From Bryobacteraceae bacterium (GTDB lineage Bacteria > Acidobacteriota > Terriglobia > Bryobacterales > Bryobacteraceae): a stretch of 64,000 nt of DNA. The notes beneath the pieces were generated by a model that was not told where the DNA came from, searched no databases, and was given only the letters and a program-made list of their open reading frames with translations. The stretch lies in assembly GCA_025055455.1 (NCBI GenBank), contig JANWXD010000013.1, positions 1 to 64,000 on the forward strand, written 5' to 3'. Position 1 is the first letter of the stretch, and each line of letters begins with the position of its first letter. The position numbers were made by a program, and so were the translations under genes. Positions 3,492 through 31,755 of the stretch are shown here, in pieces.

Positions 3492-6047
3492 TTACCTCCT
3501 CGAGACTCTTTCCGGAACGCTGTTCCGGTAAATGGCGATGCTGAGGGCGATCCGCGCCGAGGGCGCCTTTTGGGCCGTGCGCAGATCGGCCTGCAAACCT
3601 AGCAATTGATTCAACCCGTGCGCCAGCTGGTCCCGTTCGGCCTCGCTGGGGATGCGCTGTTTGTTGTGCAACACGTTGCGCGCCAGCTGATAGGCCCACC
3701 GCGCCCGCCAGGACGCCGCCCGCAAATTCAGGCGGGCGGCGCCGTCGCGCTCCACTTGGCAGCGCTCGTCGTCGAAGGCGAGCACGCGGTAGGCGAAGGC
3801 CAGGCTCAGCCACTGCCGGCGCAGCCAGTCGTTGAGCTTCTCCGCCCGCTCGAGCTGCCGGCGGTACTCGGCCCACTCGACCGGCGCCGGACTGAAGGCG
3901 CAGATGCGGGACCGCCCGGCGTCCTTGGCCCGCTCCAGGCGCTCCTCGGCCGCCGCCGCAGCGCGGTTCAGGGGCCGGTCCGGTTTGATCAGCTCCAGGG
4001 CGGCCGAGATCGTGATGTGCGGATTGTTCCCCGTCCAGCGGCGAAACTCGCTTTCGAGCGTGTCGGCCAGCGCCGTCATTTGCCGCCACGGTCCGATCAG
4101 CAGCAGGTCGTCGCCCCCCGCGTAGACCGTGTAGGTGGACGGGTAGTTTTGCCGCAGCACTCTCATCAAGCGCGCCGTGAAGAAGAAATCCAGCATGCGC
4201 GACAAGGCGGCCAAACGCCCCAAACTCGGCGTCTGGCTCCCCATCGAGAAGATCATTCCCAGCCGGTCCACGTCGGCTTTGAGGACGGCCAGCATCGCCT
4301 CGCCGAGCAACTGGCCGTCGACCGCCTCGAGGGCGTCCAGCGCCAAATGCTCGAAGGTCTTGACGTCGCCAGGCTCAGTCTGGCGGCCTTCTTCGCTCAA
4401 CAGTCGGTACGCGGCTTTGTCGGTCTCCCCTGCCGCCAGCCGCGGCACATAGTTGGCCACATGCCGGAGCGCGTATGGCTGGCCGCGGGCCTCGAAACGA
4501 CATGCGGAGACGAAGGGGCGGGCATGGGAGGGCGCCTCCTCGTAAAGGACCAGCCAGAGTTTGTGGTACAGCCGGATCGGTTGGAAGGGGCTCGGTGGCG
4601 GATCCGGCTGATCGCTCCAGGCCATGGCCTGGGCGCGCGGCAGCACGCTGCCGAGCTGGCGTTCCTCCTCGCAGACCTCGCAGCGCCAGACCGAGCTTGC
4701 GTCTTCGCGTTGCTCTTCGTGCGCCGCCGGGCGCACGCCGCAGGCTTTGCAGACTCCCGCAGGGTAGCGAGCATCCCGGTGCACGGCGCGCAAGCAGGTG
4801 GAGAAGGCCCGCAGCTTGGCCTCCTCGCGGGCGCGGCTGATGCGCTCCTGCAGAGCCATAAACTGCTCCCGCATCAAGGCTTCGCCCGCAAAGGGCTCCG
4901 TCAGAGACAGATTGAGCGCCAGCTCGCCCCGGTAGCGCTGGAACAGCCAGTCTTCGATGTGCTTGCGCACGGCTTCGACGCGTTCCTCCAAACCGGGGAC
5001 GTCCGCCACCAGCATCAGGAACTGGCCTCCCGCGGTCGCCAGGATAGAAAACGGCGGCAGGTCCAACGCGCGCCGGCACAGCAGGGCCGCGCCCTCCACG
5101 AGCATTCCCAGCACAAAGCTCCGCGCGCGGAGAATCCGGTTGACTCCCGCCACCTGCTCGCTGGCCAAACGAAACAGACTGGACTGAATCCCGGACAGGT
5201 CGCCGCTCAGGAAGCGAAACTTCGGCCGGCGACGGTCGCGAATGGCCGCCGCCTCGTCCAGGCTTCCCTCGCGCTCGTGGAAGCGGTACAGCGCCGCCGC
5301 CACCGCCGCCGCGGCGCGGGAGTGATCGTGCAGCGAGATGTCCGGTTGGTCCTTGACCGAGGACGGCACCGCGTGCAGGTATCGCTCCGACAGCGAATGC
5401 AGCGCCTCGGCGAAGACGTCGAAAGCCGCGCCGGGCAACGCCAGCAGCGCCTCGAACTCTTCTCGGAACCTCTCGGCCAGCCTCCGGTAGCGGACCGGGT
5501 AATCCGACGTGTCCAACTTCGGCCGCGGTACGGCGGCCTCCTCTGCCGACAACTCCTCGAGCGGCACGAAGGAATCCGGCGCTGTGCCGAGCGTCGCCTC
5601 CAGCTGCACACCCTGAAACGGGCTCACCAGCGGCGTGCGCGCGTAGTCCGGCCGGCTGCGCTTCTGTTCTTCTTCCTCGTCTCGCGGCTTGCGGTCCATG
5701 CCGGCCGAGAGCCGGTCCGCTTCGGCCGCAATCCAGGCTACCGCGCCGATTTCGGCCTTGCCGTTGTCCGGGGCATGGTGGAAGACGGCCACGTGGCGCA
5801 CCTGCCGCCAGCGCACCCCCGGTGGAGCCTCCCGGTCCCAGCCGAGTTCGTCGAAGAAGAAGTCCGTCCACAGCACGTGCTGGTGCGTGTAGCGACCGCT
5901 CTGCGGATCCTTGGGCAGAATCGTGGAGTCCAGCTCCCGCACGTGCGCCGGCAGCGCGAAATCCGCTCGTTGAAAAAACTTCCCGATGTCGTGCAGGAAC
6001 ACGCCGAGAACCGTCTCCTCGCAGGTGGGCATCTGCTTGTCGTTCAC
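3492..6047 (-). CDS. cas10: Cas10/Csm1, cyclase-nuclease large subunit of the type III-A complex
   Basis: This 851-residue protein is the signature subunit of type III systems. An N-terminal HD domain (FLHDIGKFF, His19-Asp20) would cut single-stranded DNA. A four-cysteine zinc finger (CKAC...CEVC, about 431-457) lies in the middle, and the second palm domain carries an intact GGDD (644-647, YAGGDDLLLIG) for cyclic oligoadenylate synthesis. Both activities therefore look intact. Translation starts at GTG in a GTGA overlap with the upstream CARF gene stop, indicating translational coupling. csm2 follows after 8 bases. Length is within the normal Csm1 range (about 750-900). Confidence 0.97.
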   Translation of the reverse strand: MNDKQMPTCEETVLGVFLHDIGKFFQRADFALPAHVRELDSTILPKDPQSGRYTHQHVLWTDFFFDELGWDREAPPGVRWRQVRHVAVFHHAPDNGKAEIGAVAWIAAEADRLSAGMDRKPRDEEEEQKRSRPDYARTPLVSPFQGVQLEATLGTAPDSFVPLEELSAEEAAVPRPKLDTSDYPVRYRRLAERFREEFEALLALPGAAFDVFAEALHSLSERYLHAVPSSVKDQPDISLHDHSRAAAAVAAALYRFHEREGSLDEAAAIRDRRRPKFRFLSGDLSGIQSSLFRLASEQVAGVNRILRARSFVLGMLVEGAALLCRRALDLPPFSILATAGGQFLMLVADVPGLEERVEAVRKHIEDWLFQRYRGELALNLSLTEPFAGEALMREQFMALQERISRAREEAKLRAFSTCLRAVHRDARYPAGVCKACGVRPAAHEEQREDASSVWRCEVCEEERQLGSVLPRAQAMAWSDQPDPPPSPFQPIRLYHKLWLVLYEEAPSHARPFVSACRFEARGQPYALRHVANYVPRLAAGETDKAAYRLLSEEGRQTEPGDVKTFEHLALDALEAVDGQLLGEAMLAVLKADVDRLGMIFSMGSQTPSLGRLAALSRMLDFFFTARLMRVLRQNYPSTYTVYAGGDDLLLIGPWRQMTALADTLESEFRRWTGNNPHITISAALELIKPDRPLNRAAAAAEERLERAKDAGRSRICAFSPAPVEWAEYRRQLERAEKLNDWLRRQWLSLAFAYRVLAFDDERCQVERDGAARLNLRAASWRARWAYQLARNVLHNKQRIPSEAERDQLAHGLNQLLGLQADLRTAQKAPSARIALSIAIYRNSVPERVSRR

Positions 6048-28767: not shown

Positions 28768-29505
28768 ATGGCCGCTATGAGGAAGCTAGCGAGTTGGGTT
28801 CTGCTGGCGACGGCGGCCGCGAGCTCGGTCAAGCGCCCCGTCGAGGAGTTTCCGGCTTCGGGAGGCACCGTGCGGATTACACCGGTCCGGCATGGCAGCT
28901 TGATGATCGAAGCGGGCGGCCAAGTGATCCACGTGGATCCGTGGAGCCAGGGTAACTATGAGGGCCTGCCGCAGGCCGACATCATTCTGATCACGGACAC
29001 CCACGGCGATCACTTGGATCGGGTCATGATCCAGAAGCTGAAAAAGCCCCATACCGTGGTCATTGGCCCCCCGGCGGTCGCCAAGGCGCTCGAAGATGTC
29101 GCCGCCGTCACGGTGTTACGGAACGGCGAGACGACCAAAATCGGCGCCTGGACGATCGAAGCTGTGCCGATGTACAACCTCAAGCGAGGTCCCGCCGAAG
29201 GCAAGTTTTACCATGACAAGGGCCGAGGCAATGGATATGTCGTGACGTGGGGAGGCAAGCGCTTCTACATCTCCGGCGATACGGAGGGGGTGCCGGAGAT
29301 GCGAGCTCTCCAGAACATCGACGTCGCCTTCGTATGTATGAATCTGCCGTTTACGATGCCGCCCGAGGAGGCCGCCGACGCTGTGAAAGCGTTCCGGCCC
29401 AAAATCGTCTATCCCTACCACTATCGCGGCTCGGATCTGTCGGTGTTCGAACACGCATTGAAAGGAACGGGCATCGAGGTGCGCATTCGCGACTGGTATT
29501 ACTGA
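28768..29505 (+). CDS. Exported MBL-fold metal-dependent hydrolase
   Basis: This 245-residue protein has a short signal-like N-terminus (LASWVLLATAAASS) and the UlaG-type metallo-beta-lactamase fold: RHGSLMIEAGGQVIHVDPW, the metal site TDTHGDHLD (H-x-D-H variant with Gly), GRGNGYVVTWGGKRFYISGDTE and YPYHYRGSD. Proteins of this type hydrolyse phosphodiesters or lactones; the substrate cannot be predicted. The start may instead be ATG 28777, which lies 7 bases after a TAGAAT box and would give a leaderless transcript. The last 7 bases overlap the end of the convergent gene. Confidence 0.9.
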   Translation: MAAMRKLASWVLLATAAASSVKRPVEEFPASGGTVRITPVRHGSLMIEAGGQVIHVDPWSQGNYEGLPQADIILITDTHGDHLDRVMIQKLKKPHTVVIGPPAVAKALEDVAAVTVLRNGETTKIGAWTIEAVPMYNLKRGPAEGKFYHDKGRGNGYVVTWGGKRFYISGDTEGVPEMRALQNIDVAFVCMNLPFTMPPEEAADAVKAFRPKIVYPYHYRGSDLSVFEHALKGTGIEVRIRDWYY

Positions 29506-30857
29506 CGGACCGCCGGACGCACCCGAACGGTGAGCGGCGGACGGGGAGTTACGGTGAACTCGAGGATGCCGCCTCGATCCGCCTCGAGCTCGCGCATCTC
29601 TTCGTCGTCGGCTTCGATTTCGTAGCGGCCCCCTGGCGCCAAGCCCACGACAAAGACCAGCTTGGTCTCGGGGTTGTCAAGGGTGAAACGGGCCGCGCCG
29701 GAGGTATATAGCACCGCCGCGTCCTGAATGCAAATCGGCTGGGGCTCGGCTTCCGGCCTCAGGATTTTGCGCTCGCCCTTTTCGAAGAGCTGCAATTCGC
29801 GGTCGAAGTACCCCAGCCAGACAGCGTCCTCCTCCCAGCTTGACCGCAGGAACAGCCTGCCGAACGTGGTGTCGTGCCAGGCCAAGGGCACGTGGTAGTA
29901 GCTGAGACCCGGAAGGTAGGGGTTGGCCCAAAGAAACTCGTAGGGAATCCCAAAGGAGCCGCGCATCAGGAATCGGTCGTGGATCAGCCAACCCTGTAGG
30001 AACTGGTTCTCGAGCAGGTTCGGGTCGTAGGCCACCGTGGCCAGAGCGGCCGCCCGCGTCAAAGCCGCCACCTCGAGGTTGACTTCCCCTTCCCCCTTCC
30101 ATGCCGGGATCCAGTATTCGTTCTCGGCGGCCGGAAACGGCGCGGGGTAAAAGCTGAGCAGCAGGTATTTGGGCAGGTCCCGGAACCACAGTCCCGCGGC
30201 TTCGCGCAGGTCGACGAAGAGATTGTCGCGCACTGCGTGGAGGAGTTCCGCCAAGGGGTACAGCTCGGCTTGTGGAACGCTCGCCCGGCCGGAGCGGAGA
30301 CCGGGAACGACCTGCTCGCGCCACCAAACCTCCACGGCGAAGCGCAACTTTTGCTCCGGCAAGCTGGGTACGTGTCCGGATAGAGCTATGGCAGCCAGCA
30401 CACGATCTCGCACGGCCGAGATGGAAGGATCCTCGCGGCTCGTCCCCTCGAGGACACTGCGAAGGCGGCGCGAAAGCGTGCCGGACTGGGACGGTGTCAG
30501 CGCTGATTGGCACCAGTCGAAGACCAAGGCGGTCTGCCGGGTGTCTCTGACCTGCTGAGTCGCCCACTCCGCGGCTTGGCGGCAGGGCTTAGGGTCGTCG
30601 GTCACCTGGGAGTAGAGGGCCAGCGCAAAGCCGGGCTCCGGGAGAGCACCCCCGGTCTTCATCACCAGCTCGAATTGCTGCCAGCGAAGCGACAGTCGCT
30701 GCCGTTCGCGTTGAAGCAGTCGCAACCGGCGGGGCTCGAGAAACAAGCGTGGGTGTGGCCGTCCGATCCGATAGCTTTCGGCCCTGTCTTGCGCCGCCGC
30801 CTGAGGTCGCGGCGAAGGTAGCACTACCAGGATCGCCAGCAGTAGCTTGCAAACCAT
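29499..30857 (-). CDS. Exported protein resembling heparinase II/III-type polysaccharide lyases
   Basis: This protein of about 452 residues has a signal peptide (CKLLLAILVVLPSPRPQAAAQ) followed by HPRLFLEPRRLRLLQRER, which resembles the opening of alginate/heparinase-type lyases. A helical region (alpha/alpha toroid-like) and a C-terminal beta-rich part with FLRSSWEEDAVWLGYFDR (compare the 'R-S-W-x-x-D-A' strand of the heparinase sandwich domain) follow. The lyase assignment is tentative: I cannot identify catalytic Tyr/His with certainty. ATG at 30875 and a longer start at 30929 are alternatives; GGAGGGG is directly before 30857, too close for normal use. No other polysaccharide-degradation gene is adjacent. 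Confidence 0.7.
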   Translation of the reverse strand: MVCKLLLAILVVLPSPRPQAAAQDRAESYRIGRPHPRLFLEPRRLRLLQRERQRLSLRWQQFELVMKTGGALPEPGFALALYSQVTDDPKPCRQAAEWATQQVRDTRQTALVFDWCQSALTPSQSGTLSRRLRSVLEGTSREDPSISAVRDRVLAAIALSGHVPSLPEQKLRFAVEVWWREQVVPGLRSGRASVPQAELYPLAELLHAVRDNLFVDLREAAGLWFRDLPKYLLLSFYPAPFPAAENEYWIPAWKGEGEVNLEVAALTRAAALATVAYDPNLLENQFLQGWLIHDRFLMRGSFGIPYEFLWANPYLPGLSYYHVPLAWHDTTFGRLFLRSSWEEDAVWLGYFDRELQLFEKGERKILRPEAEPQPICIQDAAVLYTSGAARFTLDNPETKLVFVVGLAPGGRYEIEADDEEMRELEADRGGILEFTVTPRPPLTVRVRPAVRQ

Positions 30858-31012
30858 CCCCTCCGATTGTGTCATACGGACACGGTCCCCCGCCCAAGCC
30901 TCAGCCTTGCCCAGCCAGCCGCGTTGCAACGCAAGAACTTACAGCCAAGCCAGGTTGGGGACTCGATTGCAAAGGGGAGGGGCGAATTGATGTGAGTTGC
31001 TCTTTGAACCTG

Positions 31013-31139
31013 CCCTCTGCGGCAACCAGCAAGCGAGAGGGTGAACCATGCGGCGGAACGCAGGACATGCTCGCGGGACACGAGGTGGAACTCAAGCCGG
31101 TTCACCCGCTCGTTTTGGGGTTGCAACAGAGGGTTTTTT
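31013..31139 (+). ncRNA. Candidate structured RNA with terminator-like end
   Basis: A long interrupted stem closes this segment: CCCTCTG (31013-31019) with CAGAGGG (31127-31133), GCAACC (31022-31027) with GGTTGC (31119-31124), CGAG (31034-31037) with CTCG (31109-31112) and GGGTGAACC (31039-31047) with GGTTCACCC (31099-31107). Two small hairpins fit inside (TGCG/CGCA 31049-31062 and CTCG/CGAG 31070-31084). Six T follow immediately (31134-31139). No protein-coding frame is convincing. The rod-plus-U-run shape is that of a small RNA; I do not recognise a known family (not tmRNA, RNase P, SRP or a known riboswitch). Confidence 0.55.
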
Positions 31140-31310
31140 GGCCTCAAACCTCAGGTTCCCCCCAGGGATCCTCGGTTCCGGCCACAACCGGAAGCTCTGT
31201 GTGGAGGCAAATTTTATTGTGAGGACGCGGGCTTCACCAGGGCCGGAACGGCTAGCGGGTGCAACGTTCTCCGGTTGAGTCGGCGCCGGATCCCGCGCCC
31301 ACCTGGGCGG

Positions 31311-31362
31311 ACCGCATCGGGAGCGACGGACACTCTCCTTCGCTTCCGATGCGGTTTCTTCT
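31311..31362 (+). terminator. Long hairpin with T-rich tail
   Basis: A 20-base arm (31311-31330) pairs with 31336-31355 with one mismatch and one G-T pair around a 5-base loop; TTCTTCTTT follows on the plus strand. It lies 26 bases beyond the stop of the minus-strand gene at 31381 and so may act in both directions, but the T-rich side faces plus-strand transcripts coming from the 31013-31310 region. Confidence 0.6.
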
Positions 31363-31380
31363 TTCCCTCCGTCCCCGAGG

Positions 31381-31674
31381 CTACCAAGCCAAGGTACCGG
31401 AACGGGGTTCCTCCTCCGGGTTCGGCAGGTAAAGCGTCTTGCACCGCTCGCAGCGATAGATCTCGGCCTCTGCCCCGAATTTTTCCTTCACTTCGTCGCC
31501 GAAAAAGTACCACCGCTTGAGGTGGCCGGCGCAAATCTTGCCTTTCTCAGCCTTTTCGTTGCAGGCGCGCTGCCGCAGAATCCGTCGTTTGACCTTGGTG
31601 CCGTCGCTCAGAACGGCGACGACTTCCGACTCCGGAGCGGACTTTCCCGGCAAGGGGAACTTTGCGGTTGCCAT
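31381..31674 (-). CDS. Small protein with a zinc-ribbon-like cysteine pattern
   Basis: This protein of about 97 residues starts at ATG 31674 (MATAKFPLPGKS); an ATG four codons upstream is an alternative. It has a basic N-terminal strand region (VVAVLSDGTKVKRRILRQ), then cysteines in ACNEKAEKGKICAGH and a C-terminal CERCKTLYLP knuckle, which together could bind one zinc ion. I do not recognise a family. A nucleic-acid or protein-binding role is only a guess. TATACT on the minus strand (31695-31690) is a probable -10 box, giving a 5' leader of about 10 bases. Confidence 0.7.
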   Translation of the reverse strand: MATAKFPLPGKSAPESEVVAVLSDGTKVKRRILRQRACNEKAEKGKICAGHLKRWYFFGDEVKEKFGAEAEIYRCERCKTLYLPNPEEEPRSGTLAW

Positions 31675-31755
31675 AGCTCTGAACAAGGGAGTATACCAGT
31701 GGCCGTTGCTGACCGGCGCAGAGCCCGGGCGTTTGGCCGGAACCTGAAGCGTGCC

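Follow-up and report, generated by a model that had tools for sequence, protein, structure and literature searches.

Most of what is known about the biology of bacterial small RNAs (sRNAs) comes from Proteobacteria and Firmicutes. CrcZ, Qrr and similar sRNAs are made on demand by sigma54 together with an activator. By Rfam scans, the sole comparison made, these RNAs show no relation to the RNA described here, which we call RNA1. Its nearest analogue in terms of control appears to be GlmY, but RNA1 does not seem to be a GlmY itself; the GlmY and GlmZ families are presumably included in the Rfam library that we scanned. As described for Escherichia coli in PMC6075780, GlmY has a sigma54 promoter with upstream sites of the form TGT-N12-ACA and an overlapping weak sigma70 promoter. 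Like GlmY and GlmZ of the Enterobacteriaceae, RNA1 is a structured sRNA candidate with a sigma54-type promoter and a putative upstream activating sequence, in this case TGT-N11-ACA, and the weak sigma70 promoter of GlmY has a possible counterpart in a TTGAC box carried by some RNA1 copies. In contrast to GlmY, RNA1 occurs in another phylum, has one upstream site instead of three, is followed by a second RNA in tandem and has no Rfam match. The kinase-regulator operon of GlmY was not recognised among the commonest gene clusters neighbouring RNA1, which are mostly without annotation.

From the same phylum as RNA1, Table 1 of PMC2864571 lists the structured RNA candidates Acido-1, Acido-Lenti-1 and Solibacter-1. 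The first two have Rfam numbers according to that source and the Rfam scans gave no match between them and RNA1, whereas Solibacter-1 has no Rfam number in that table and so falls outside the comparison. Searches of a library of open-access papers brought up none on RNA1. Based on its sequence, we propose that RNA1 represents a new family of sRNAs, one whose control signals are unusually clear, and that it is quite probably a stand-alone regulatory sRNA, sigma54-dependent and controlled by an activator through enhancer looping, with read-through into the second RNA (RNA2) and action in trans via a partner.

Structure and distribution of RNA1

RNA1 occupies positions 30984..31139 on the forward strand of the window (the whole 64-kb stretch of DNA that was analysed), where we infer its 5′ end at the letters GAATTG and place its 3′ end at a run of T. 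A preliminary description of this sequence had proposed four helices of 7, 6, 4 and 9 bp in register across 120 bases, followed by six T, and all were recovered at the proposed places and sizes in the minimum free energy (MFE) fold and on checking of the letters. The basal helix of 7 bp pairs a 5′ arm CCCUCUG (31013..31019) with a 3′ arm CAGAGGG (31127..31133), and is succeeded by helices of 6 bp (31022-31027 with 31119-31124), 4 bp (31034-31037 with 31109-31112) and 9 bp (31039-31047 with 31099-31107), with U6 at 31134-31139 after the basal 3′ arm. Such a rod had been thought unlikely by chance, and the 129-nt rod indeed folds at -65.0 kcal/mol compared with -44.8 +/- 4.2 for shuffled sequences (z -4.84, none of 200 as stable); for the whole interval initially delimited, 30940-31140, the values are z -3.03 and one shuffle in 200 as stable. 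Two small apical hairpins, also part of that description, are present in the window sequence but are not the common form: five of eight relatives folded alone have a single GCUU/GAGC apical hairpin, from which the apical fold of the other three (L035, L036 and L043) departs. The L043 copy (G036:C94) has a shortened rod with a core of 101 nt. The apical segment of the window copy, GCUCGCGGGA (31069..31078, forward strand), corresponds to the family form GCUUGCGGGA, whose letters are near-invariant across RNA1 copies in the alignments. A simple terminator scan reported no site at the rod, as expected because its loop limit is 8, and the stem and T-run are predicted to be RNA1's own terminator.

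The rod was initially said to match no recognisable family, and this held. At gathering level, Rfam gave no match in the 64-kb window, and when the threshold was relaxed to E 10 for positions 30900-31400 the rod still had none; the seven weak matches in that interval comprise six microRNA models on the terminator-like hairpin downstream and ES173 (E 8.2), which starts at the T-run. Six relatives gave nothing convincing either, with five weak matches to unrelated families and none near a gathering score. No tRNA or tmRNA was found in the window. The further claim that no protein is encoded here is borne out by the relatives: open reading frames (ORFs) cross the rod mechanically, but the RNA1 cores, 101-131 nt long, are spread over all three residues modulo 3 (29, 35 and 37 sequences), and the crossing ORFs are therefore not conserved coding sequence. 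A coding role for RNA1 was rejected on this ground.

An early DNA search covering 61 genomes gave partial and often weak matches, some of which were co-ordered in genomes of the window's family. From 20 of the matched stretches, a common element emerged that consists of a 5′ leader GAAUUGAUGAAGU..CUUUGAACCUG, an arm CCCUCUGCUGCAAC, variable arms, an apical motif CGUGCUUGCGGGAGCC, an arm GGUUGCAACAGAGGG and a T-run. When genome contigs were scanned with a pattern in which the basal stem was fixed together with a portion of the T-run (the subsequent Python extraction required the same words), this element was detected in 97 stretches, and 79 of the 80 that are listed are titled Acidobacteria or one of its sublineages (Bryobacterales, Bryobacteraceae, Solibacter, Terriglobia etc.). 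The remaining one, a contig titled as a Planctomycetota metagenome-assembled genome (MAG; L085), carries RNA1 together with the divergent neighbour gene discussed below, and perhaps belongs to a mislabelled or mixed MAG.

Searches with a covariance model (R1) were free of the word pattern, though the model itself was built from pattern-found loci. R1 detected RNA1 in 109 of 121 Bryobacteraceae genomes and gave no match in the remaining 12; the carriers have one sense match in 103 cases and two in six, and the window copy, at 79.5 bits, is among the weaker ones. Across the order, RNA1 was found in 76 of 100 genomes, namely 75 of 80 in the window's family, one of two in a second family and none of 18 in a third. 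A draw of 297 genomes from the phylum, in which most genomes without a match are not listed by name or family, yielded four matches, three of them in the window's family, while the fourth (25 bits, 59 bases) looks like a chance match. The 101 RNA1 sequences collected are distinct cores and not independent lineages, for which the 62 clusters of spacer sequences are the nearer count.

Pairing is kept in the relatives, which supports the original proposal of a new structured small RNA. Among 95 distinct sequences in an alignment fitted to the structure, standard pairs occupy 88.5% of cells, compared with 80.2% (sd 0.3) when the 3′ letters are re-dealt and 41-50% when the partners are slid. Changes on both sides occur in 28 of the 41 pairs, with 315 double-change cells versus 99 after shuffling, and none of 500 shuffles reached any of the five covariation measures, under a null that ignores kinship. 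The seven basal pairs never vary because the search pattern fixes the basal stem, and are thus constant by construction. When arms were exchanged between copies, native pairing had a mean of -24.1 kcal/mol versus -18.9 for exchanged arms, kinship being ignored; this comparison covered 95 of the 101 sequences, the other six, including the window's own, having no apical match by the rule used. Own-arm pairing beats the mean exchange in 91 of these 95, with the native arm being the single best partner in only nine of 95 rows and two of 95 columns. Seven of the 73 representatives (L043, L045, L071, L090, L096, L101 and L142) were omitted from alignment A2 as divergent. By comparative sequence analysis, pairing in RNA1 is kept by compensatory change.

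We prefer a protein partner, for which RNA1 might serve as a decoy or scaffold, over base-pairing with mRNAs, because both ends and the length of the RNA are conserved while the arms change so long as pairing holds. Base-pairing via the 5′ leader or the apical loop, in the manner of ordinary trans-acting sRNAs and with the rod only as a stabiliser, is a reasonable if less probable alternative. It would fit the conserved 5′ leader, of which about half is left unpaired in predicted ensembles, and the U-tract that closes the RNA, whereas the length of the rod and its apical letters are conserved beyond the apparent need of a mere stabiliser.

RNA2 and the downstream region

Directly downstream of RNA1, on the same strand, lies a second conserved structured RNA, RNA2 (31146..31317), with a score of 104.7 bits against a covariance model (R2) for which the window was one of the 23 source sequences. 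RNA2 is built of nested helices around an apical segment, GGACGCGG (31223..31230, forward strand), a GCCC/GGGC hairpin and a terminator-like hairpin. The apical segment is invariant in the 23 rows of alignment A4, which holds 19 of 35 RNA2 representatives and four other sequences. The terminator-like hairpin and its T-rich tail (31311..31364, forward strand) close RNA2 between convergent genes, and a pattern search found a comparable hairpin behind 71 of the 101 RNA1 copies. With 48 sequences (48 of the 49 chosen sources matched; L140 did not), 85.9% of RNA2 cells are paired compared with 78.8% after shuffling, and 150 double-change cells compare with 48. Part of RNA2 has the look of a signal recognition particle (SRP) RNA; this reading was rejected, the SRP model having no match there.

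R2 gave 91 matches in 84 of the 121 family genomes, and 87 of these lie directly downstream of RNA1, with a median gap between models of 24 nt (range 5-204), as counted against the 115 sense R1 matches and leaving out weak antisense ones. Of the other four, one is truncated at the edge of its contig. The remaining three (L206:425-498, L207:373-520 and L208:470-543) are separate RNA2 copies without RNA1, all in a single genus, and each of them immediately follows a nested inverted repeat (CTAAGAC .. AACGACA .. TGTCGTT .. GTCTTAG, varying slightly between copies), perhaps a mobile element or a site of control. Where the gap is short, it leaves little room for a separate promoter, so that read-through from RNA1 would be the simplest supply of RNA2.

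The gene facing RNA2 on the reverse strand (31381-31686) encodes a protein of 101 amino acids, which matches no Pfam family over its cut-off and belongs to a cluster over 30 loci. No conserved co-oriented gene, such as would follow a riboswitch or a cis-regulatory leader, was found directly downstream of RNA1, where the neighbours are varied and some are co-oriented. This arrangement bears on whether RNA1 acts in cis, as a leader or attenuator that would use its terminator to control how far transcription continues into RNA2 or into a gene behind. With its stem and U-tract located between the promoter and RNA2, and RNA2 close behind it in nearly all matches, RNA1 is suitably placed for such a role, and co-oriented ORFs do follow some RNA1 loci (their clusters reach 15 loci-ORFs in size, and several of these ORFs are perhaps antisense frames). 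However, RNA1 also occurs without RNA2, as its presence in 109 genomes versus 84 indicates, no single co-oriented gene is conserved behind it, and the commonest gene, that of the 101-amino-acid protein, is convergent in 29 of 30 loci. We therefore consider a cis-acting role unlikely, and retain the stand-alone RNA as the preferred reading.

Sigma54-type promoter and upstream palindrome

Upstream of RNA1, on the same strand, the window carries a sigma54-type -24/-12 promoter, TTGGGGACTCGATTGCA (30955..30971), of the form GG-N10-GC with GG at 30957-30958 and GC at 30969-30970. Promoters of this type have to be switched on by a dedicated activator protein. GG-N10-GC ends 11-16 bases upstream of the inferred start in 98 of 99 RNA1 copies compared with 3% of shuffled sequences. 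When the 98 copies are aligned on GAATTG, G is found at -26 in 97% and at -27 in 77%, T at -28 in 71%, and TTGC at -16 to -13, a column pattern that we take to be the sigma54 -24/-12 element by consensus. A reading of this element as an extended -10 was rejected, as the column frequencies put GG and GC at a distance of twelve. Both the U-tract and the conservation of the sigma54-type promoter speak for an RNA1 transcript. A sigma54 gene (PF04552) was detected in all 35 family genomes examined, including that of the window, and in 43 of 57 genomes in all. A GAFTGA-type motif scan found no activator gene in the window, and among 232 locus records an activator-like motif was seen in two, as judged by eye. 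A sigma70 consensus scan found no promoter at 30800-31500. A TTGAC(A/T) box, potentially of use to sigma70, is present in 32 of 100 copies; sigma70 was rejected as the general promoter of RNA1, a fitting -10 being found in only two of 100 copies by the rule used.

Further upstream is a 17-bp palindrome with the consensus TGTGTCAYAGYGACACA (30868..30884), a candidate enhancer or upstream activating site of RNA1. Of 99 copies, 97 have TGTGTC-N5-GACACA upstream of the promoter; 73 of these sites are exact, 19 (as in the window copy) have one mismatch and five have two. At this tolerance of up to two mismatches, the palindrome is missing in L043 and L109. These two loci keep the -24/-12 element without the palindrome, and in L109 the divergent gene is absent from the locus too. 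Among 37 genomes, 13 contain exact TGTGTCANNNNGACACA, at 15 places in total. Twelve of these places lie upstream of RNA1, which suggests that the palindrome is nearly private to RNA1. TGTC halves are also carried by PilR- and NtrC-type sites.

The distance from the palindrome centre to GG is 81-85 bp in 28 copies and 91-95 bp in 63, with none at 86-90 bp, so that the two spacing classes appear to lie one DNA turn apart. The remaining six of the 97 copies have other spacings, two in phase (71 and 72 bp) and four out of phase (97, 98, 98 and 109 bp). The spacer itself is poorly conserved, with an identity between random pairs of only 0.33. Across the 62 spacer clusters, the concentration at a period of 10.5 bp is 0.72 compared with a mean of 0.18 under a null of uniform spread over 81-98 bp that ignores kinship (none of 5000 draws as high), and periods from 10 to 11.5 bp fit about equally. 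A quickly built tree of the neighbour protein, with 57 labelled rows, requires a minimum of four changes from one class to the other. Helical phasing is described as mattering for activation loops in a review of the subject (PMC7408454).

The divergent neighbour of RNA1, on the reverse strand at 29499..30857 (the ORF list starts it at a TTG at 30929, the likely start being 30857), encodes a protein of ~450 amino acids with a signal-peptide-like start and a polysaccharide-lyase-like fold. The window's protein has no Pfam domain; its AlphaFold2 model has a mean pLDDT of 91, and the best PDB matches of that model are alginate lyase (E 1.6e-6) and heparinase II (E 2.2e-6), with a TM-score by query of ~0.48. 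Searches with a query starting three codons inside the likely start found the gene in 114 of 121 family genomes, and it lies upstream of RNA1 in 74 of 81 loci, two of the other seven having less than 120 bases upstream. This proximity is what would favour the palindrome and promoter serving the lyase-like gene, with RNA1 a by-product. We consider this very unlikely, since the -24/-12 element points toward RNA1 and the palindrome stays with RNA1 where the two are apart, i.e. on different contigs with enough sequence on both. In 11 such genomes, the palindrome (up to two mismatches) is found at RNA1 in all 11, but at the lyase-like gene in none of the ten that are testable, with 474-591 bases upstream of the match; the eleventh has 12 bases. 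The same genomes speak against the palindrome as an operator of the divergent gene. Genome G036, without a match to this gene, has an RNA1 copy (L042) with an exact palindrome. Elsewhere in the window, positions 3495-6047 on the reverse strand encode a Cas10/Csm1-type protein by Pfam, and a type III CRISPR locus is therefore likely to be present.

Proposed mechanism and its significance

An identity of RNA1 with the 6S RNA of this lineage, or with a paralogue of it, is highly improbable: RNA1 is a long rod of a length comparable to that of 6S RNA (RF00013), but its promoter is of sigma54 type and its apical motif is a different one, the 6S model has no match to it at E up to 10, and in 18 of 37 genomes that model matches a different locus with E no higher than 0.01 (all 18 in the window's family and including the window's own genome; two of the 37 over the cut-off). 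In the window's genome, the probable 6S RNA is located at G000:C123:92962-93146, with 32.5 of the 46.4 bits required and hence below the Rfam cut-off. SRP RNA was rejected as an identity of RNA1 in the same way, since 6S-like and SRP RNAs were both found at other loci of the genome.

In the mechanism that we favour, RNA1 would be a stand-alone regulatory small RNA of ~155 nt made by sigma54 RNA polymerase. An enhancer-binding activator, presumably of the NtrC class, would bind the palindrome some 8-9 DNA turns upstream and reach the promoter by looping. Transcription would start near GAATTG, the rod would fold, and the basal stem with the U-tract would end the RNA1 transcript, while read-through would extend it into RNA2, which would stop at the second terminator. 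RNA1 would most likely act in trans, its long rod of conserved length presenting the apical GCUUGCGGGA to a partner, and its conserved 5′ leader would stay partly accessible to that partner. Possible, though more doubtful, is a wider extension of this model to a lineage-wide and almost single-target circuit, with one activator, one palindrome per genome and a tandem of two RNAs, in which the apical segments with their shared GCGG core would bind the same partner and the RNA1 terminator would set the ratio of RNA1 to RNA1-RNA2.

The phased spacing of the palindrome over about 100 natural sequences amounts to a test, run by evolution, of whether DNA loops at a sigma54 promoter. RNA1 is a structured RNA that nearly all members of a large family of soil Acidobacteria possess, and since it comes with a phased enhancer-like site and a sigma54-type promoter, both its putative input, the activator, and its putative output, the partner of the loop, are directly searchable.
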